A stretch of DNA of 38,246 nt from positions 1-38,246 of IMG/VR virus record IMGVR_UViG_3300007735_000697. One strand, written 5' to 3'. The notes beneath the pieces were generated by a model. That model did not search any database. It had not been told where the DNA came from and was given only the letters and a program-made list of their open reading frames with translations. Position numbers and translations under genes: made by a program. Shown here piece by piece: positions 726-38,246 of the stretch. The stretch is from a virus. Position 1 is the first letter of the stretch; each line of letters starts with the position of its first letter.

Positions 726-1055
726 TTAGTGTTGGCGATAGACAAAACCGCCGTCAACCTCTCCCACCAATGCACCATCGTTTTCGAGGTAATCGCGTAC
801 AGTCTCCTCCCGCTCGTCTTCGTCCTCGCATTCCGACAGATCAACCCCGTAATCCTGGGCTATGTCGGCTACAGTGCCTTCCGCATAGTCGCAGCAAATT
901 GCAACAACGTCCAGCTCTAGCTCTTCCCCGCAGTCCTCCTCATACTGTTCGAAATAGTCCCACAGTACAGACAGGGCATCGTATGAGAATTGACTCTCGC
1001 GGCCAGCGGCGCGAAAGGCGTCAACAAAGGTAGAGAAGGTCACAGTCTGTTTCAT
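726..1055 (-). CDS. Acidic early protein (DUF7222-like), only in copy A
   Basis: The 109-residue protein is rich in Asp and Glu, with a conserved-looking core around ELDVVAICCDYAEGTVADIA. I recall this pattern from a phage and plasmid family usually listed as DUF7222; the name is from memory and unverified. The strong negative charge would suit a DNA-mimic or anti-restriction role, but that is speculation. A GGAG ribosome site lies 10 bases before the ATG at 1053-1055. In copy B the same upstream leader, including the ribosome site, precedes an unrelated 90-residue gene (36332-36604), so the gene is swapped exactly at its start codon. Confidence 0.8.
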   Translation of the reverse strand: MKQTVTFSTFVDAFRAAGRESQFSYDALSVLWDYFEQYEEDCGEELELDVVAICCDYAEGTVADIAQDYGVDLSECEDEDEREETVRDYLENDGALVGEVDGGFVYRQH

Positions 1056-1113
1056 GATGGATAAGCTCCAGAAGTTACCGCATACCCTGCGGCTTGGGTG
1101 TCAGTGAGATCAT

Positions 1114-1157
1114 ACACTGCACACCATAGGGCACTCAAGAGAGTGTCCCTACAGTGT
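1114..1157 (-). ncRNA. Conserved intercistronic RNA hairpin, copy A
   Basis: Outer arms ACACTG (1114-1119) and CAGTGT (1152-1157) pair perfectly. The inner arms 1127-1136 and 1141-1151 form 10 pairs with a single bulge and an AAGA loop. The same outer stem and a shorter perfect inner stem exist in copy B (36661-36704) although the sequence between them has changed. There is no U-run on either strand, so this is not an ordinary intrinsic terminator; an RNA processing or stability element is possible. Confidence 0.55.
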
Positions 1158-1183
1158 GAAGGGTTAAGCTTCCGCAGGAATGC

Positions 1184-1438
1184 TCAGAGAACGAAATTTG
1201 TCATTACGTTGGCATAAAAATACCCCTGAAATTTTCCCTGCGTTTCTACACGATAGACGGGCTCGTCCCGCTTGTGTAGTTGATTGCGTGCGACACGATC
1301 AAATTTTACGCGAACAATCGTGCCGGGAGCTAGGTCGTCGTCGCCGTTCTCAGTAAAAATGTGCCGGGCAATTACTGCGGTACTGTATAGGCGATACTTG
1401 CCAGGATTGCGAATAAAATCAGTATGATCGTATGCCAT
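1184..1438 (-). CDS. Hypothetical early protein, only in copy A
   Basis: 84 residues starting MAYDHTDF at ATG 1436-1438, chosen because a GGAG site lies 8 bases upstream; an in-frame TTG at 1444 falls too close to it. The central part (PGTIVRVKFDRVA ... EPVYRVET) looks like a small beta-barrel, SH3-like fold, but no family is recognised. The upstream leader (about 1439-1462) is shared with copy B, where it precedes a different 59-residue gene at 36732-36911, so this is one of the exchanged cassettes. Confidence 0.65.
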   Translation of the reverse strand: MAYDHTDFIRNPGKYRLYSTAVIARHIFTENGDDDLAPGTIVRVKFDRVARNQLHKRDEPVYRVETQGKFQGYFYANVMTNFVL

Positions 1439-2440: not shown

Positions 2441-2460
2441 ATACTCTATAGTACTAAGAC

Positions 2461-2620
2461 GATACATCTATGCTCCATAGATGATACATAGATGTTAAAT
2501 ACACTTTATAAGTAATAATACTATATAAGTATATAATACATTTATGTATTATACATTATAAGTAATATACTATTATAAGTATTATACATATAAGTTAACG
2601 TATAAGTATACGTTAAAGTT
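2461..2620. repeat. AT-rich repeat island with TATAAGTA units and palindromes
   Basis: TATAAGTA occurs at 2507, 2524, 2557, 2574 and 2601, with a TATAAGTT variant at 2589. A perfect 9-bp inverted repeat TTAACGTAT/ATACGTTAA spans 2595-2616. CATCTATG/CATAGATG (2465-2483) is another perfect inverted repeat, and CATAGATG recurs at 2487-2494. The same TATAAGTA and ATACGTTAAAG motifs appear in the AT-rich island at 35371-35466. Candidates are an origin of replication or a cluster of regulator sites. Confidence 0.6.
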
Positions 2621-2676
2621 CAACTTGGTTCGTAGCCTGTCTAAGGATGATGTCTAACAATCAATGGGTTGTCTTC

Positions 2677-2717
2677 TTGTAAAAAGTACTTGACTTTTGT
2701 AAAAAGTATGGTATAAT
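2677..2717 (+). promoter_or_regulatory. Terminase/virion operon promoter flanked by a direct repeat
   Basis: TTGACT (2690-2695), 16-base spacer, TATAAT (2712-2717) with a TGG extended -10, then TATAGG. A 12-base direct repeat TTGTAAAAAGTA (2677-2688 and 2697-2708), spaced exactly 20 bases, brackets the -35 and fills the spacer, so a regulator could bind on one DNA face. Expected transcript start is about 2724. Confidence 0.75.
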
Positions 2718-2767
2718 TATAGGTATGTGTGGGAAATTATCCTCCCAATCGGGGAAAAGGAAGACAA

Positions 2768-3154
2768 GTGACAAGACCTTCTGGTAACAAAATGGGTCGG
2801 CCCTCAAAGAAAGCATTGGCCGAAATGAAAGAAAACAGGTCGGTGGGAAGACCTAAGGGTACAGCAGCAATAATAAACGAATATCGGGACCGCATGTTGA
2901 TGTCCCCAAAATCCAGCAAGGTGTTGGAGAAGATATTTGATGCTGCCCTTAACGATGAGCACCCCCACCAAGCAGCAGCCTGGAAGCTGGTGGTAGACCG
3001 TGTGGTTCCTGTTTCTGCTTTTGATTCCGCAAAGCAAGGTGGATCAACACCTCAAATCAGCATCAACATCTCGGGATTGAACCAGCCTACGGCTGAAGTC
3101 GTGGAGCAGGTGGAAGATGTGTCTTACCGGGAGGTAGATGATGACAACGCTTAA
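2768..3154 (+). CDS. Putative terminase small subunit
   Basis: I call GTG 2768 as the start (128 residues): it has an AAAGGA site (2756-2761) 6 bases upstream and leaves a normal leader from the promoter at 2690-2717. The upstream in-frame GTG at 2729 would be almost leaderless. Two AT-hook-like motifs (MGRPSKK, VGRPKG) in the N-terminal part suggest DNA binding, followed by a helical region (LEKIFDAALNDEHPHQAAAWKLVVDR) typical of small terminases, and an acidic C-terminus. Its 3' end overlaps terL by 14-17 bases. The role, recognising the packaging site and loading the large subunit, is inferred from position and motifs. Confidence 0.75.
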   Translation: MTRPSGNKMGRPSKKALAEMKENRSVGRPKGTAAIINEYRDRMLMSPKSSKVLEKIFDAALNDEHPHQAAAWKLVVDRVVPVSAFDSAKQGGSTPQISINISGLNQPTAEVVEQVEDVSYREVDDDNA

Positions 3155-4400
3155 CTTCCAATTGTTGAAGTGGCAGCAGGAAGTGTTTAACGACAAACAC
3201 CGATTCAAGGTGGTGGCTGCTGGTCGTCGTTGTGGTAAGTCTCGACTGTCTGCGGTTACCCTGTTGATTGAGGGTTTGAACTGTCCGGATGGTTCCTCGG
3301 TAATGTATGTCGCCCCTACCTTGGGGCAGGCACGGACGATTATCTGGGACTTGCTGCATGAGTTGGGACGACCTGTAATTAAATCCAGCCACGTTAACAA
3401 CCTTGAGATTACGCTCATCAACGGCAGAAAGATTCTGGTACGAGGTGCAGACAACCCTGACTCGCTGCGAGGTGTGTCGTTAACGTATCTGGTGTTGGAC
3501 GAGTGTGCGTTCGTGAAGCAGGATGTGTGGGAGAAAATCCTTCGTGCTGCCTTGTCGGACAAGAAGGGCCGAGCATTATTTATTTCTACCCCTAGCGGCA
3601 GGAACTGGTTTTTCGATACGTTTAAGCTCGGACAGTCGGAAGAAGATGAAGAATGGAAAGCGTGGCACTTCACCACGCAAGACAACGAAACCATTGATCC
3701 CAAGGAAATCGAGGCTGCTAAACGTACCCTGAGTTCCTTTGCGTTCAAGCAAGAATACTTGTCGTCGTTTGACACCGCTGGTGCGGATGTATTCAAGGAA
3801 GAATGGTTCAAGACTGCTCCAGAACCGCAGTATGGTCAATATGTCGTAGCGATTGACTTGGCTGGTTTTGAGGAAGTAGGCAAGAACGCTGGAGCATCCA
3901 AGAAAAGATTAGATGAATCTGCTATTGCTATTGTCAAGATTGAGGACAACGGCAACTGGTGGGTACACAAGATTCTACATGGTCGGTGGGACATCAGAGA
4001 GACTGCTGTCAATATACTAAAGACAATCAGGGACTATGAGCCTATTTCTGTTGGTATTGAACGAGGGGCATTGAAGAATGCTGTTCTGCCCTATCTTAAC
4101 GATTTGATGAGGAAGAACAACATTTATGCACACATTCAAGACCTTACGCACGGCAATAAAAAGAAAGTTGACCGGATTGTTTGGAGTCTTCAGGGCCGCA
4201 TGGAGCACGGGCGAATTTCGTTCAATGAAGAAGAAGATTGGGAAGAATTTAGAGACCAGATTGTTATGTTTCCTACTTCTGGCGTCCATGATGATCTTGT
4301 TGATGCGTTGAGTTATGTCGATCAATTGGCTTTGACTAACTATCAGCAAGATTACGAAGAAGACGAATATATTGTTTTAGACAAAATTGCGGGGTACTAA
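3141..4400 (+). CDS. terL: Terminase large subunit
   Basis: DNA-packaging motor with an N-terminal ATPase and a C-terminal RNase H-like nuclease. Visible motifs, counted from the ATG at 3138: Walker A at about residues 28-35 (AGRRCGKS), Walker B LVLDE at about 118-122, an ATPase coupling-type STPSG motif near 150-154, and nuclease acidic residues Asp240 (VAIDLAG), Glu308 (GIERG) and Asp385-386 (HDDLVDAL). Two ATGs occur at 3138 and 3141; the GGAGG site at 3130-3134 fits the second better (6-base spacing). Length about 419 is normal for a podoviral TerL. It overlaps the small subunit gene, implying coupled translation. Confidence 0.95.
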   Translation: MTTLNFQLLKWQQEVFNDKHRFKVVAAGRRCGKSRLSAVTLLIEGLNCPDGSSVMYVAPTLGQARTIIWDLLHELGRPVIKSSHVNNLEITLINGRKILVRGADNPDSLRGVSLTYLVLDECAFVKQDVWEKILRAALSDKKGRALFISTPSGRNWFFDTFKLGQSEEDEEWKAWHFTTQDNETIDPKEIEAAKRTLSSFAFKQEYLSSFDTAGADVFKEEWFKTAPEPQYGQYVVAIDLAGFEEVGKNAGASKKRLDESAIAIVKIEDNGNWWVHKILHGRWDIRETAVNILKTIRDYEPISVGIERGALKNAVLPYLNDLMRKNNIYAHIQDLTHGNKKKVDRIVWSLQGRMEHGRISFNEEEDWEEFRDQIVMFPTSGVHDDLVDALSYVDQLALTNYQQDYEEDEYIVLDKIAGY

Positions 4401-4562
4401 ATGAAACAAGGACTGTACGCGAACATCAACGCAAAGCGTAAACGCATTGCTGCTGGTAGCGGTGAAAAGATGCGTAAGCCCGGTAGCAAAGGTGCTCCGA
4501 GTGCTAAAGACTTTAAGGATGCGGCTAAGACTGCCAAGAAAGGGAAGAAAAGTGGCTACTAA
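4401..4562 (+). CDS. 53-residue basic conserved phage protein
   Basis: ATG directly follows the terL stop. The product starts MKQGLYANINAKRKRIAAGS and is very Lys/Arg-rich, with KPGSKGAPSAKDF in the middle. Small basic proteins of this pattern recur beside terminase and portal genes in many environmental podoviruses, to my memory; no function is established. The charge suggests DNA binding or packing within the head. It overlaps the next gene by 11 bases. Confidence 0.85.
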   Translation: MKQGLYANINAKRKRIAAGSGEKMRKPGSKGAPSAKDFKDAAKTAKKGKKSGY

Positions 4563-9792: not shown

Positions 9793-11571
9793 ATGGCTTT
9801 AATTACAGACTATGAAGGCACACAATACGATTGGCCTACTATTCAGAATTTAATGGGTCAAATTTTACCAAATTTAGACCCTAATAGGTTATCTGGCGGT
9901 GCTTTTGGAACAGGTGGTCAAAGTATTGGTTTTAATTTTGATGAAGCTTCTCGATATTTAGGCAGAGCGCCAACAACACGAGAACAAATTGCTCTTGATA
10001 TGGCCCGCCAGTTGGCTAAATCTAATGTTCTGGATATTTCTCAGTTGTCTTTAGGACAATATACTCCGCCACCTCTTGAATTAGAGTCTGGTTTTAGAGA
10101 GGACGGCCCCCGATCTGCTGTTTTTGCAAACGGCAATTTGTTGGGTTCTTCTATTATTCCTGGAAGTAACTTTTTTGGTGCAACTTATACTGGTCCTGGC
10201 GGCACAGCTTATAATGTAAGCATTGATCCTGCTACAGGTAAACCTGTATTCTATACTGAACAGATTGATACCAGCGATAAAGACGCATTAAAGGCTTTGG
10301 CTGTTTTTGGTGCTCTTGCAGGTGGCGCAAGTTTACTCGGCGGATTAGGCGGAGGAACAGCCGCAGGAGCAGGTGCTGCTGGAACCACAGCCGCAGGATT
10401 AGGCCCGATTGAATTGGCTATCGCTGCAGGTGAGGGCATTGTTCCGTTGACAGCAGCCCAAACAGCGACAACCGGACTTACAGCAGCACAGTTAGGTGCT
10501 TTAGGGTCTGGTATTGGTTTAAGTGGTGGAACTGGTTTACTTAGTAGTGTAAGTAACTATTTAACAGACCCCAAGAATGCTAAAACTATTGCAGATTTGG
10601 CTAGAGCAGGGATTAACTTAGCAAGTTTAGGTGGAGCAGCAAATATGTTCGGTGCAGGTAACGCAGAAGTTGGCTCTATCCCCACACAAGGAATGCCTGT
10701 AAACACACCTGAATACTATCAGGCTGTGCAAGGTTTCCTGAACCAGTATCTGCCCGGTCAGATGCCTAACCAAGCTGGTTATCTTGCTGATTGGTACGGT
10801 GGTATGGGTACTTTTGGAGGGACGGGGGTTGCTGGTGGTGTTCGTCCTCCTGTGCCTCTTCGTCCTCCTGTGCCTCCTCGTCCTCCTGTGCCTCCTCGTC
10901 CTCCTGTAAAAATGATTCCTGGATTAGATGCAGGGCAGTCGGCACGCTATGCTCAATTGTCGCCAGAAGACCAAAAGAAGTATCTTGCATTGGCTGGTGC
11001 TTATAATGCACCCGGAGATGCAGCGTCAGATGCTGCTTTGGTGCTGGAATACATGCGTAGTTCTGGGTTGGACATCAATGCTATTGCTGCGCTTGCAGGT
11101 GTAGACCCCCAGATGGTGACTTCTTATTTGGGACAAGAAGGTTTAACTCCTGCTCAACTGGCACAATACCAAAGCCTTGGTTACGGTGGTCAAGACATCT
11201 ACAAAGACCTTGTAGGTGCTTATCAATCTCCCGGCACGGTACAAGAAGACGCACAACAAGTGCTACAAGTAATGCAGGAGAATAAACTAACTCCGGCTGA
11301 CTTAGCGATTATTACCGGTATTCCTGTCAATGAAATCAACGCATACTTAGCTCAAGCAACAACGGAAACTCCTTCAATGATGGCAGGACCGATTGAGGTT
11401 GATACCGCCCCGTCTGCGCCTACCTTCACCACACAAGATATTGTGAATGCATATCAGCAAGAGGTTATTGGTGGTGGCATGTCTGAAGCTCAGTTCGTAC
11501 AACAGGCAATGAATATGGGCGTGTCTCCTTCTGAGTTGCTTACAGCACAGTCTGTTCTTTTAGGTCGATAA
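9793..11571 (+). CDS. Large virion-type protein with Gly/Ala segment and Pro-rich repeats
   Basis: 592 residues, family not recognised. Visible parts: a soluble N-terminus; a long Gly/Ala-rich, mildly hydrophobic stretch (about 165-290) that could insert in membranes; a linker of RPPVPP repeats (about 350-372) encoded by 18-base DNA repeats; then two related helical units (around 385-450 and 460-525), each with DAxxVLxxM...L..AD/NAIA..GV/I....YL, suggesting an internal duplication. These features fit a structural or ejected virion protein. The start is the ATG one base after the preceding stop. Confidence 0.7.
   Translation: MALITDYEGTQYDWPTIQNLMGQILPNLDPNRLSGGAFGTGGQSIGFNFDEASRYLGRAPTTREQIALDMARQLAKSNVLDISQLSLGQYTPPPLELESGFREDGPRSAVFANGNLLGSSIIPGSNFFGATYTGPGGTAYNVSIDPATGKPVFYTEQIDTSDKDALKALAVFGALAGGASLLGGLGGGTAAGAGAAGTTAAGLGPIELAIAAGEGIVPLTAAQTATTGLTAAQLGALGSGIGLSGGTGLLSSVSNYLTDPKNAKTIADLARAGINLASLGGAANMFGAGNAEVGSIPTQGMPVNTPEYYQAVQGFLNQYLPGQMPNQAGYLADWYGGMGTFGGTGVAGGVRPPVPLRPPVPPRPPVPPRPPVKMIPGLDAGQSARYAQLSPEDQKKYLALAGAYNAPGDAASDAALVLEYMRSSGLDINAIAALAGVDPQMVTSYLGQEGLTPAQLAQYQSLGYGGQDIYKDLVGAYQSPGTVQEDAQQVLQVMQENKLTPADLAIITGIPVNEINAYLAQATTETPSMMAGPIEVDTAPSAPTFTTQDIVNAYQQEVIGGGMSEAQFVQQAMNMGVSPSELLTAQSVLLGR
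10843..10907 (+). repeat. 18-bp tandem coding repeat (Arg-Pro-Pro-Val-Pro-Pro)
   Basis: About 3.6 units of CGTCCTCCTGTGCCTCCT, starting at 10843, 10861, 10879 and 10897. Units are nearly identical at the DNA level, implying recent slippage expansion. They encode a stiff proline linker inside the 9793-11571 gene. Confidence 0.9.
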
Positions 11572-30408: not shown

Positions 30409-30493
30409 TGGTGCGGCTGACCGGACTCGAACCGGTACGCCGATTGGCGAGGGATTTTAAGTCCCTTGCGGCTACCAATTACGCCACAGCCGC
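30409..30493 (-). tRNA. tRNA-Leu (anticodon UAA), CCA encoded
   Basis: The acceptor stem GCGGCTG/CAGCCGC pairs perfectly, and the CCA end is encoded (30409-30411 complement). The anticodon stem AGGGA/TCCCT holds the loop CTTAAAA with anticodon TAA. A long variable arm (CGCC/GGCG) gives the type II shape of leucine tRNAs, and the T-loop GTTCGAGTC is standard. It reads UUA codons. It lies inside the replication operon, 21 bases before the SSB start. Confidence 0.95.
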
Positions 30494-35470: not shown

Positions 35471-35499
35471 ATTGTATCACAGTTCCTGATTGTCGTCAA
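35471..35499 (-). promoter_or_regulatory. Leftward sigma-70 promoter of the replication operon
   Basis: On the minus strand: TTGACG (35494-35499), 17-base spacer, TACAAT (35471-35476) with a TGA extended -10. It overlaps the last codons of the CxxC gene, and the transcript would start near 35464, about 92 bases before the first gene of the replication operon. Confidence 0.75.
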
Positions 35500-35686
35500 G
35501 CTCCTGCATCTCTTGATCGATGTCTACCTCTGTGATGAGGTCTTTCCTGTCGCGCACAGGCAACGGTGTCACATCGGAGACAGCAGCAAAGCAAGGATTA
35601 CACATATCCAAAAAGTCACCTGTCATTCCATGTCGTCGGGTTGACTCATAGTCCGACAACAAGCGATCACAGCATACACACTTCAT
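35477..35686 (-). CDS. CxxC small zinc-binding-like protein
   Basis: 69 residues. MKCVCCDRLLSDYESTRRHG opens with Cys3/Cys5/Cys6 and is followed by MCNPC (about 28-32), a likely four-cysteine zinc site. The C-terminal half is acidic (EVDIDQEMQELDDNQEL). Similar short zinc proteins occur in early phage regions without assigned role. Its 3' end carries the replication promoter. The left contig end carries a truncated copy. Confidence 0.8.
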   Translation of the reverse strand: MKCVCCDRLLSDYESTRRHGMTGDFLDMCNPCFAAVSDVTPLPVRDRKDLITEVDIDQEMQELDDNQEL

Positions 35687-35756
35687 TTTAAGCCCTTCTG
35701 GGGTGTTGGTGCAGGATACCCCTCACCCAATGTAAAATAAACGCTCTAAGGCCCGT

Positions 35757-36083
35757 TTAAAGGCCTCTAAACAGCCTTCCCGAAGCCCTTTGCACCTCCC
35801 CTTGTCCCGTCAAGCACATTCGACCATCAGGAAACCATGTAAAAACCAGGATTTCAGCGTCATCAGGGTCAACGAAGATCACCACACGGTGCCCTTCACC
35901 TTGGGACATCAAAAGCTCTTTGTAAGGGCTTTGTGGTGCCCGTAGATGGGCCAGGATCGACTCTGAAGCCCCACAAAGTGCAGGGATGCTCCCTTGCGCC
36001 ATCGGTGGGCTTTGGGCGTGAGACAGTGCTGCGGTAACCAGTAATATACCCATTAGCACCCGTTTAATCTTCATCTTCATCAT
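35757..36083 (-). CDS. Small secreted or periplasmic phage protein, copy B
   Basis: 108 residues from the ATG at 36083 (GAGG site 6 bases upstream). Signal peptide MMKMKIKRVLMGILLVTAAL with an S-H-A cleavage motif, then a mature domain almost identical to copy A (two cysteines kept). Changes cluster in the signal region and just after it, with conservative V/I and A/S swaps elsewhere. See the entry at 141-467 for role. Confidence 0.8.
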   Translation of the reverse strand: MMKMKIKRVLMGILLVTAALSHAQSPPMAQGSIPALCGASESILAHLRAPQSPYKELLMSQGEGHRVVIFVDPDDAEILVFTWFPDGRMCLTGQGEVQRASGRLFRGL

Positions 36084-36183
36084 GCAAAACCTCATAATAT
36101 AGGGTTTCTTCGGCTAATTCGAGCATTAACAATAGATCAGCCTCGGATACTTTGGGTTGATAATCATCAATGTCGTAGTCCAT
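36064..36183 (-). CDS. 39-residue acidic small protein, copy B
   Basis: MDYDIDDYQPKVSEADLLLM, then LELAEET and an Asp/Glu-rich end. The first 26 residues equal copy A; differences lie in the tail, which overlaps the start of the secreted-protein gene. Function unknown. Confidence 0.75.
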   Translation of the reverse strand: MDYDIDDYQPKVSEADLLLMLELAEETLYYEVLHDEDED

Positions 36184-36185
36184 GT

Positions 36186-36332
36186 TTACTTGTCCTTCAC
36201 TAATTCAAATAAACCCAGGCATTCCCCTGTTTCAGGGTCGAAATCATTAGATTCCAGCCACAGACGGGCCATCATGCGACTGTCTGACCGATAGGCCACA
36301 ATTTTAGATGATCGGAATCGGACTAGGTACAT
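36186..36332 (-). CDS. 48-residue conserved small protein, copy B
   Basis: Start ATG 36330-36332, or the adjacent ATG at 36335 which overlaps the previous stop. One residue (Met for Thr) differs from copy A despite about 14 changed codons, so the protein is under strong selection. A longer in-frame extension to 36371 is not conserved in copy A and is rejected. Confidence 0.8.
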   Translation of the reverse strand: MYLVRFRSSKIVAYRSDSRMMARLWLESNDFDPETGECLGLFELVKDK

Positions 36333-36604
36333 CATGCTTCCGGCATAGTGATGGTAGACTGTACAAAGCAAAACACATAACCTTTGCCGTCTGCACTTTG
36401 ACCATAGGCCATTGTGGAGTAATCAGGCGCATATTTAAGTTCACGGTCCATCAAAACCCTAGCAGCTTTGGCATGGCGCTCCACGTCGCCTAAGTCATAA
36501 TCAACGCTGATTGACACGGGCTTGTGCCCATTGTTGGTGTAAGCTTTGATGCGAGCCCCGCGTGTGTCGGTAGCAGGGACAAACTTAGTGTGAATAGCGA
36601 TCAT
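36332..36604 (-). CDS. 90-residue hypothetical protein, only in copy B
   Basis: ATG 36602-36604 behind the conserved leader with GGAG 10 bases upstream; the reading frame upstream to 36685 crosses the leader and is rejected. MIAIHTKFVPATDTRGARIK, then SISVDYDLGDVERHAKAARV and a beta-rich end. The RGARIKA and D...HAKAA patterns recall small phage proteins of unknown function. It replaces the acidic 109-residue gene of copy A exactly at the start codon. Confidence 0.75.
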   Translation of the reverse strand: MIAIHTKFVPATDTRGARIKAYTNNGHKPVSISVDYDLGDVERHAKAARVLMDRELKYAPDYSTMAYGQSADGKGYVFCFVQSTITMPEA

Positions 36605-36660
36605 GATGGATAAGCTCCAGAAGTTACCGCATACCGTGCGGCACGGGTGCGTGTCATCAT

Positions 36661-36704
36661 ACACTGCACACCATAGGGCACTCAATAGAATAGCCCTACA
36701 GTGT
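36661..36704 (-). ncRNA. Conserved intercistronic RNA hairpin, copy B
   Basis: Outer ACACTG (36661-36666) and CAGTGT (36699-36704) pair as in copy A. The inner stem is TAGGGC (36674-36679) with GCCCTA (36693-36698), and a 13-base loop. Compared with copy A the loop side has diverged, yet pairing is kept without a bulge. Confidence 0.55.
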
Positions 36705-36731
36705 GAAGGGTTAAGCTTCCGCAGGAAGCGC

Positions 36732-36911
36732 TCACATTGTCTCAGACAGTGCCAGCATCATACCCTCGCCTGATTGATAATCGTCAAGATTGTAGGGTTT
36801 ATACCCTGCAGGGCGCTGTTCGTTCAGCATGTCGCGAGCTTGCGCCCACCCGTAGCGGCGGATCATTCCCATCATGCGCTCGTATCCGTCCCAAAATGCT
36901 TTTGATTTCAT
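36732..36911 (-). CDS. 59-residue hypothetical protein, only in copy B
   Basis: ATG 36909-36911 with GGAG 8 bases upstream in the shared leader. MKSKAFWDGYERMMGMIRRY followed by GWAQARDMLNEQRPAG and an acidic end. Mostly helical and basic at the front. It stands where copy A has the 84-residue gene (1184-1438). Not recognised. Confidence 0.65.
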   Translation of the reverse strand: MKSKAFWDGYERMMGMIRRYGWAQARDMLNEQRPAGYKPYNLDDYQSGEGMMLALSETM

Positions 36912-36933
36912 TGTCAATTCTCCGATGGTAGGT

Positions 36934-37050
36934 TTAGTTTACAGATTGTGCTGCCTTGTCAGCGTCAGCCAGCGCCTGCGCTGCAGGCTTACCGGCCAGG
37001 ATTCCGGCATTGTAGACAGACAGCCAGAGGCAGTATTGTGATTGTGTCAT
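36934..37050 (-). CDS. 38-residue small protein, only in copy B
   Basis: ATG 37048-37050 overlaps the stop of the upstream gene by four bases. MTQSQYCLWLSVYNAGILAG then KPAAQALADADKAAQSVN. Alanine-rich, helical. One of two extra genes absent from copy A. Function unknown. Confidence 0.6.
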   Translation of the reverse strand: MTQSQYCLWLSVYNAGILAGKPAAQALADADKAAQSVN

Positions 37051-37343
37051 GCTTGCCCCGTGGCTGCGGCGATAGCGGCGCGGATGGCCTTTGAGTGGCG
37101 CTGTACGGTGCCGGGCTTGAATGCGGCAAGCTGCGCCGGGTCGGATAGAACATCCTCGACATACGGCAGGGCGTCCAACAGCGCGTCCAGCAGGGCCGGT
37201 GCTGCTTCAATCAATCGTTTGTTTGCTTCTGCTGCTTTGCCGAGGCCACACGATTCAGTCCATTTGCCGAGGTGTAAATACTTGCCATTTGCCTGACACA
37301 GCGTGTCGTTGCAGAAAGCCCAAGGGCCGGGAGTGTGTTGCAT
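37047..37343 (-). CDS. HTPGPW-family phage protein, only in copy B
   Basis: 98 residues. MQHTPGPWAFCNDTLCQANG, a short beta part, then AAEANKRLIEAAPALLDALLDALPYV: the HTPGPW ... N.RLI.AAP.LL.AL signature of a very common phage and metagenome family of unknown function. The remainder is a helical Ala-rich tail. Its presence here and absence in copy A marks it as a mobile accessory cassette. Confidence 0.8.
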   Translation of the reverse strand: MQHTPGPWAFCNDTLCQANGKYLHLGKWTESCGLGKAAEANKRLIEAAPALLDALLDALPYVEDVLSDPAQLAAFKPGTVQRHSKAIRAAIAAATGQA

Positions 37344-37358
37344 GATGATTCTCCTAAG

Positions 37359-37454
37359 TTAGCGGGTGAGGACGTCAAAGTAGCTAAGGGCGAGCATGGT
37401 GAGACACAAGCCCAAGGCTACAGCGAAGAGACAGTCGATGATGGTGTCGCGCAT
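37359..37454 (-). CDS. 31-residue membrane miniprotein, copy B
   Basis: Identical in amino-acid sequence to the gene at 1460-1555 while eight bases differ, all silent. One transmembrane helix. It keeps its place as the second gene of the leftward early cluster in both haplotypes. Confidence 0.8.
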   Translation of the reverse strand: MRDTIIDCLFAVALGLCLTMLALSYFDVLTR

Positions 37455-37457
37455 GGT

Positions 37458-37712
37458 TCACCCCTTGGAAAGCTTCTTGAGGGCCTGATCCTTCAGCCCG
37501 TAGTGATCGGGTGCCTCAAGCTCAAGGATTCTCGCAGCATAGTCCACGCATTGCGCTGTCGTCAGCTCCGAACTAAAAGGCTGCACGCGGATGAATCGCG
37601 CAACATTCACCAGCACAGTGACAGTGTGCAGAGACTTCGCCAAGGGCTTAGCCTTAGGTGTGGAGTCAGCGGCAATGCCGGACAAGTACGCGGTGGTGGT
37701 ATCGGTAAACAT
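37458..37712 (-). CDS. First early gene of copy B, 84-residue hypothetical protein
   Basis: ATG 37710-37712 with AGAGGA 4-5 bases upstream. MFTDTTTAYLSGIAADSTPK, a central TVTVLVNVARFIRVQPFSSE strand region, and a helical C-terminus ending in a basic LKKLSKG. No recognised family. Copy A has an unrelated 53-residue gene in this position. Confidence 0.7.
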   Translation of the reverse strand: MFTDTTTAYLSGIAADSTPKAKPLAKSLHTVTVLVNVARFIRVQPFSSELTTAQCVDYAARILELEAPDHYGLKDQALKKLSKG

Positions 37713-37759
37713 GGTTTCCTCTTAGGTTGCATCGGTGCGGGATTGCATCCGATGTAGTA

Positions 37760-37789
37760 ACTATAACGCCAACCGCTGCAGCCTGTCTA
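37760..37789 (-). promoter_or_regulatory. Candidate early leftward promoter, copy B
   Basis: TAGACA (37784-37789), 18-base spacer, TATAGT (37760-37765) on the minus strand, about 50 bases before the first early gene. The -10 and leader are shared with copy A. Weak by sequence but supported by conservation. Confidence 0.4.
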
Positions 37790-37893
37790 TAGGGTTTTCC
37801 CTAGGTTTTGCCATCTTTACAATACTTTACATTCATTAGGGTTTACCCTGGTCTTGTATAAGACACAAGAGCACTCTTATATAAGACATAAGT

Positions 37894-37984
37894 GTATACA
37901 CTTTCAGTATACCGTAATTGTAAACAATAATTGTAGACTGTTCAGGTATACAATTGCGGTATACGATTACAGTATACGATATAG
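37894..37984. promoter_or_regulatory. Seven-unit 13-bp iteron array (GTATAC)
   Basis: Units start at 37894, 37907, 37920, 37933, 37946, 37959 and 37972, exactly 13 bases apart. Five begin with the palindrome GTATAC, and units 3 and 4 are the one-base variants GTAAAC and GTAGAC. The array lies 105-195 bases upstream of the candidate early promoter. Regular spacing argues for cooperative binding of a regulator or replication initiator. Copy A has no such array. Confidence 0.8.
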
Positions 37985-38246
37985 GGTCCCGCATCGTCCC
38001 TCACACTAGCCCGCACAAGTACGTTAGTGCTTACTCACCAGGCAATGCGAATGCGAATCATTCTCATTTGCATGTTAGTGTACGCTAACCAGGCCACAGA
38101 AGTGTGTGCTTACTAACATTGACGGGGGGAGGGGTCATCGCTTGTGTTTTATTTTTGTGGGAGCCTACCCCGCTCACAAAAAAGTAAAATTAGGTAAATA
38201 CTGCACTGCAACAAATAAGGGAAAGATGAGTACAGTATTATGTTCC

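Follow-up and report, generated by a model that had tools for sequence, protein, structure and literature searches.

Small genes exchanged whole behind a structured RNA leader in an uncultured tailed phage

Interchangeable small genes are known from phages, and the anti-restriction genes at gene 0.3 of T7 and T3 occupy the same slot; the determinants of the position and expression of such genes are rarely visible. A locus present in two versions, A and B, in the virus record IMGVR_UViG_3300007735_000697 raises this question: are small genes replaced exactly between conserved segments, what marks the site, and what might the exchanged genes do? The record is a single contig of 38,246 bases, classed as linear, and was analysed at its full length (hereafter, the window).

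The window carries terminase, portal and capsid genes on the plus strand and ribonucleotide reductase, exonuclease, DNA polymerase and primase-helicase genes on the minus strand; besides the exonuclease, it encodes a RusA-like resolvase. In searches with the window proteins, the best cultured-phage match of the terminase reaches only 28-31%, that of the capsid 37% and that of the primase-helicase 50% (Pelagibacter phage HTVC115P). Terminases 83-100% identical to that of the window are found in many IMG/VR relatives. Cultured phages thus appear distant in sequence, and the source is best explained as a tailed phage, not yet cultured, whose map is circular and about 36 kb long. Cultured phages searched with the island DNA yielded no relatives, nor did IMG/VR when searched with exact leader pieces and the 112-aa gene of the window. 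Related loci and contigs compared with the window are labelled by L-numbers below. Among other features of the window are a tRNA gene (30412-30493, minus strand) that separates the DNA polymerase gene from the genes on the exonuclease side, an 18-base tandem-like repeat (10842-10907) inside a 592-aa frame (9793-11571), and a strong sigma-70-like promoter (2690-2717, plus strand, 11/12 matches) directly before the gene upstream of the terminase.

Version A of the locus spans positions 1-2150 and version B positions 35616-38246. As both lie on one contig, they could be two diverged island copies within one phage genome, as the terms "copy A" and "copy B" of the initial annotation suggest, but this reading is scarcely credible. 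A begins at the first base of the contig and B ends at its last, and both align in the same order, as overlapping contig ends do. The island-flank gene of 69 aa (35477-35686, minus strand) is single in the relatives: of the 15 records searched, 13 have it exactly once, and in the remaining two it was not found. In L014, B-matching sequence continues directly into A-matching sequence. The records of L078 and L082 possess diverged end overlaps of their own, reaching both contig ends at unrelated loci, i.e. at reductase and polymerase genes (88.6% identity over 3124 columns and 91.2% over 1323, respectively), so that strain-mixed wrap-around contigs appear to be common in this collection. An exact 127-nt repeat closes five of ten near-complete relatives, at differing map positions. 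The paralogous-island reading was dropped on the contig-end location, the single-flank relatives and the L014 junction. To judge from this arrangement, the contig overruns its starting point on a circular map, and A and B are versions of a single locus from two strains, one at each end; because the relatives have a single island, exact closures and diverged end overlaps elsewhere, we infer that the two ends derive from two co-assembled strains. Diverged end overlaps of wrap-around contigs can, by the same token, mimic paralogous islands. The non-coding block adjoining the island (2011-2149 in A, 38106-38246 in B) is about 98% identical between the versions, is kept at about 72-84% in many relatives and is possibly an origin or packaging site.

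Taken as two strain versions, A and B differ by whole genes in the island, all of them on the minus strand. Slot 3 holds a 109-aa gene in A (726-1055; PHROG 9974 family, E 5.5e-11) and a 90-aa gene in B (36332-36604; PHROG 3199 family, E 1.3e-11), both families being without known function. The blocks flanking this slot are 92-94% identical, and the leader and ribosome site match between A and B up to the ATG. The DNA in between is at the level of shuffled sequence, its alignment score of 19 being reached by 52 of 200 shuffles, and the annotated occupation of the same slot by these two genes is real. Downstream, slot 3 is closed by a conserved 48-aa gene (570-716; 36186-36332 in B) with relatives in 25 other loci.

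Slot 2 contains an 84-aa gene in A (1184-1438) and, in B, a 59-aa gene (36732-36911), a small frame of 38 aa (36934-37050) and a 98-aa gene (37047-37343; PHROG 1273 family, E 1.2e-15); a relative of the 59-aa gene in L044 adjoins a gene of the 90-aa family. Here, too, similarity does not exceed the shuffled level (70 of 200 shuffles score as high), and replacement holds for this slot as well, but as a compound event: because the alignment shows similar ribosome sites before the 84-aa and the 59-aa gene, the 38-aa and 98-aa part was probably inserted or deleted separately. Slot 1, with a 53-aa gene in A (1565-1726; a relative lies at the same place in L035) and an 84-aa gene in B (37458-37712), retains weak residual similarity, with a score of 26 above all 200 shuffles, and is a candidate third replaced slot. 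The genes of 112, 39 and 48 aa are not replaced between A and B.

The conserved segments, described initially as untranslated, are so in part. This description agrees with the slot-3 leader and ribosome site, but the conserved stretch 1456-1556 is mostly a 31-codon gene (1460-1555; 37359-37454 in B), situated between slots 1 and 2 and present in 16 other loci. A and B differ in it by 8 nucleotides and no amino acid, and in the 48-aa gene by 15 nucleotides and one amino acid; because nearly all of these changes are synonymous, part of the conserved sequence should be regarded as coding.

Could the slot genes be the same genes, gradually diverged past recognition? Relatives within one slot family may be merely 43-51% identical, and to this extent divergence is fast enough to be considered. 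Residual DNA similarity is, however, absent in slots 2 and 3, and strains that are 90-95% identical next door possess different families, different lengths or no gene at all. In a catalogue of 44 relatives, the 69-, 48- and 31-aa genes form conserved anchors and the genes between them change. The 109/90 swap recurs between L016 (109-aa family) and L023 (90-aa family), whose leaders are 92.8% alike over 83 nt, and again between L019 and L026, which are 95.0% identical over the terminase side. In another clade (L041, L042, L054 and L062), the leader and the downstream genes are conserved (86-94%), with inserts of about 858, 221, 397 and 0 bases between them: a GP88-type gene plus a small one, a DUF7249-related gene, an ArdA-like gene and nothing, respectively. 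These domain names derive from scans of the slot genes themselves or, in the case of the GP88-type cluster, of its L015 member. Both junctions coincide with start codons, one being the ATG after the leader and the other that of the following gene. Where the initial annotation had named gradual divergence in related genomes as the contrary outcome, close relatives differ instead by replaced genes and an empty slot. Gradual divergence is contradicted by the alignments for slots 2 and 3, and as a general account we consider it next to impossible. In the genomes aligned, the exchange unit of slot 3 begins with the start codon behind the leader and extends to that of the conserved gene that follows. 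Genes with GP88-type similarity (PF17338 or PHROG 1392), belonging to distinct families, also lie directly upstream of the leader in L015 (3406-4092), L066 (2911-3663), L071 (3476-4345) and the integrase-bearing L151 (7919-8788).

The leader itself occupies 1056-1183 in A and 36605-36731 in B (minus strand), with predicted folds of -55 and -51 kcal/mol. Strong hairpins are predicted in this segment, in which A and B differ by a 2-nt indel; in A, a long hairpin lies at about 1119-1158, a small one at about 1102-1118 and a third at 1078-1092 near the ribosome site. Generally, the leader consists of two abutting hairpins, often joined by a further small hairpin at the ribosome site. A seed of 11 aligned leaders with 17 pairs has 98.9% paired cells and 10 covarying pairs. 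In 28 distinct leaders, aligned by fitting to the model and hence biased towards the structure, as the seed is not, 99.1% of cells are paired and double changes occur in 12 of the 17 pairs; 82 double-change cells are observed versus 19.5 in shuffles (0 of 500 as high). Slid controls of the leader alignment are 25-42% paired.

The covariance model R1 finds one strong copy (E < 1e-4) per locus in 15 island-bearing loci within 932 kb, all on the coding strand. The window leaders match it modestly in that search (E 0.03-0.05); when both strands of the window alone are searched, leaders B (36648-36704, E 4.7e-4) and A (1124-1154, E 2e-3) are the two best matches. An Rfam scan of the window at gathering thresholds and one of six relatives at E<=1 gave no match at the leader, and the class-I leader searched against cultured phages gave none either. 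Promoter signals are not enriched in the 28 leaders (mean score 7.93 versus 7.76 in shuffles), and only 4 of 28 have a T run like that of a terminator within 10 nt after hairpin 2; on these two results the reading as a promoter-terminator cassette was dropped.

Hairpins that retain their structure while the stem sequence varies, and that adjoin exchanged genes, might also act as DNA, namely as an attC-like recombination site or a single-strand promoter. Two neighbouring pairs speak for RNA on the transcribed strand, one being U-G in 28/28 leaders and the other G-U in 27/28; there are also stem pairs that alternate between G-C and G-U. Leaders are moreover found on the coding strand only, before genes, and a DNA function is very improbable. 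No integrase was found among the window proteins searched. The leader is best explained as a structured RNA kept by evolution and acting in the transcript. A second hairpin leader class precedes other island genes, composed of a ACACCTATTGT-stem-ACAAT element, then a AACCATCAACA-like sequence, then the ribosome site; it is located in L011 (3576-3643), L018 (1873-1943), L020 (3877-3944), L026 (4161-4223), L044 (3832-3901) and L051 (1457-1519).

If the site accepts interchangeable genes, as the initial annotation proposed with its plug-in site, the same leader should be followed by many unrelated genes. Pattern scans of IMG/VR and the covariance model, starting from related sequences, yielded 78 leaders. 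A gene follows 77 of them, mostly at 17-47 nt, and these genes fall into 27 blastp families (two of them poorly supported small frames, the gene calls being automatic), 13 with at least two members and both window families included. With the empty slot, this is the behaviour proposed. An identical 48-nt leader precedes three unrelated families, and profile libraries likewise separate the families (PHROG 13953, DUF7249, PHROG 37117, DUF7222, PHROG 5644, PHROG 1448, PHROG 2267 and others). Seven contigs contain two to four leaders, with different genes wherever the gene of each leader is assignable. L146 has four leader copies in 2.1 kb (2450-4495), resembling successive leader-gene units, three of which precede clearly different genes (109-aa family, 211 aa and 82 aa). 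In L152 and L165, the leader lies immediately before a 48-aa-type gene.

The leader is also found in phages of other kinds. L116, a contig with a T7-type terminase, possesses it at 3463-3512 before a relative of an early gene of phage LUZ19; it was not found in the regions matching L116 in the cultured phages LUZ19v, KBC54 and SnaP-R1. It is present in the integrase-bearing contigs L149 and L151, as well as in L158 and L163, whose large proteins are unlike those of the window.

How freely the island varies bears on the role of the leader. On the two sides of the 31-aa gene, genes change equally freely (in 18 loci, about 15 families on one side and 14 on the other), and hypervariability may be a property of the island as a whole, slot 3 included. 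If so, illegitimate recombination could vary the whole island, and the leader would be kept by the selection that clearly acts on its RNA, being no docking site. This is a serious, though unlikely, alternative, as it does not account for the junctions at start codons or the recurrence of leader-gene units in other phage kinds. Furthermore, some phages agree at 94-97% in the leader block and mostly at 76-82% in their replication genes, and on at least one side of the leader their genes differ; because such blocks agree so closely although the stems drift elsewhere, recent exchange through the leader is suggested.

Taken together, we regard it as highly probable that the window is a strain-mixed, wrapped contig with whole-gene exchange behind a structured RNA leader, which would give an expression context to candidate effector genes. 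Single small genes would be exchanged whole in the island, the leader and the downstream gene serving as short homologies for the recombination that swaps the gene between them; the exonuclease and RusA-like resolvase of the phage may be mentioned beside this proposal. In the transcript, the leader probably gives the following gene a fixed expression or processing context, most likely by processing, stabilising or regulating its message.

An antitermination element comparable to the put RNA of HK022 would be a different function, acting in cis on transcription in place of processing or translation. The put RNA is about 70 nt long with two stem-loops (PMC9378689), and the leader likewise has two adjacent stem-loops in a phage transcript, presumably made by host RNA polymerase. 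Put sites lie close to early promoters, however, and the leader is internal to an operon, immediately precedes a single gene and occurs in as many as four copies per contig; we think such a function rather improbable.

With a processing or expression signal as the preferred reading, what might the following genes do? The swapped genes are most likely effectors against host defences or for host takeover, with a slot content that would be selected by the hosts encountered. Most slot families have no known function. The slot gene of L054 (3910-4290) passes the Pfam cut-off for ArdA with 29.5 bits versus 27, over the C-terminal part of the profile, and is a candidate antirestriction gene of ArdA-like type. 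The net charge of the 109-aa protein is -24, that of the ArdA-like protein -19 and that of several other slot families -14 to -18; the 90-aa protein is near zero. Structure models of the 109-aa protein (confident, pLDDT 91) and of the 90-aa protein (pLDDT 80) returned nothing better than E 0.4 in a PDB fold search. The two window genes match no Pfam family and only PHROGs without known function, so that no known counter-defence protein emerged as a homologue from the Pfam, fold and PHROG searches; searches with the L019 and L026 members of the two families found no plasmid relatives. One ArdA-like gene and the acidity of several families make a counter-defence role plausible, and the map position of the island suggests an early type.

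More tentatively, and as a possibility that we do not favour outright, the leader may be a horizontally moving regulatory RNA that brings whichever gene follows it into the early programme of the phage, and that different phage kinds share as a standard socket for counter-defence genes. If this is true, it could be used as bait for new counter-defence genes. Either way, a covarying leader without Rfam match marks the exchange site to the base, among strains distinguished by the swap and with the empty slot as reference, and provides a sequence handle: a covariance-model search lists candidate effector genes across uncultured phages, at least one of them ArdA-like.

There are precedents for small early genes being exchanged behind a conserved regulatory sequence, namely the PeSLs of T4 and gene 0.3 of T7 and T3. 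The PeSL cassettes known from T4-type phages (Arbiol 2010 and Comeau 2014, as cited in PMC4503421 and PMC4177764) are described as promoter-terminator composites. As in those descriptions, a short conserved stem-loop element lies next to variable genes and is associated with their reshuffling; unlike the PeSLs so described, the leader is a covarying two-hairpin RNA, with promoter signal and T runs as low as given above. The pre-early 0.3 genes of T7 and T3 (Ocr versus SAM lyase) are unrelated anti-restriction genes in the early region of related phages (PMC11680406), whereas the present case involves a different phage group, tens of families, an RNA leader at the start codon and candidate effectors. 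Anti-defence gene clusters (e.g. PMC7648647) likewise assemble small, diverse genes at one place, here with at least one ArdA-like member, but the island is defined by an RNA leader and a slot, without a known anti-defence marker. The HK022 put RNA (PMC9378689) is similar as a phage cis RNA with two neighbouring stem-loops, a likeness in outline; in contrast to it, the leader stands inside an operon before one gene, is 49 positions long and has several copies in some contigs. New in comparison with these systems are the RNA element itself, its tie to exchange exact to the start codon, and its occurrence in several phage kinds.
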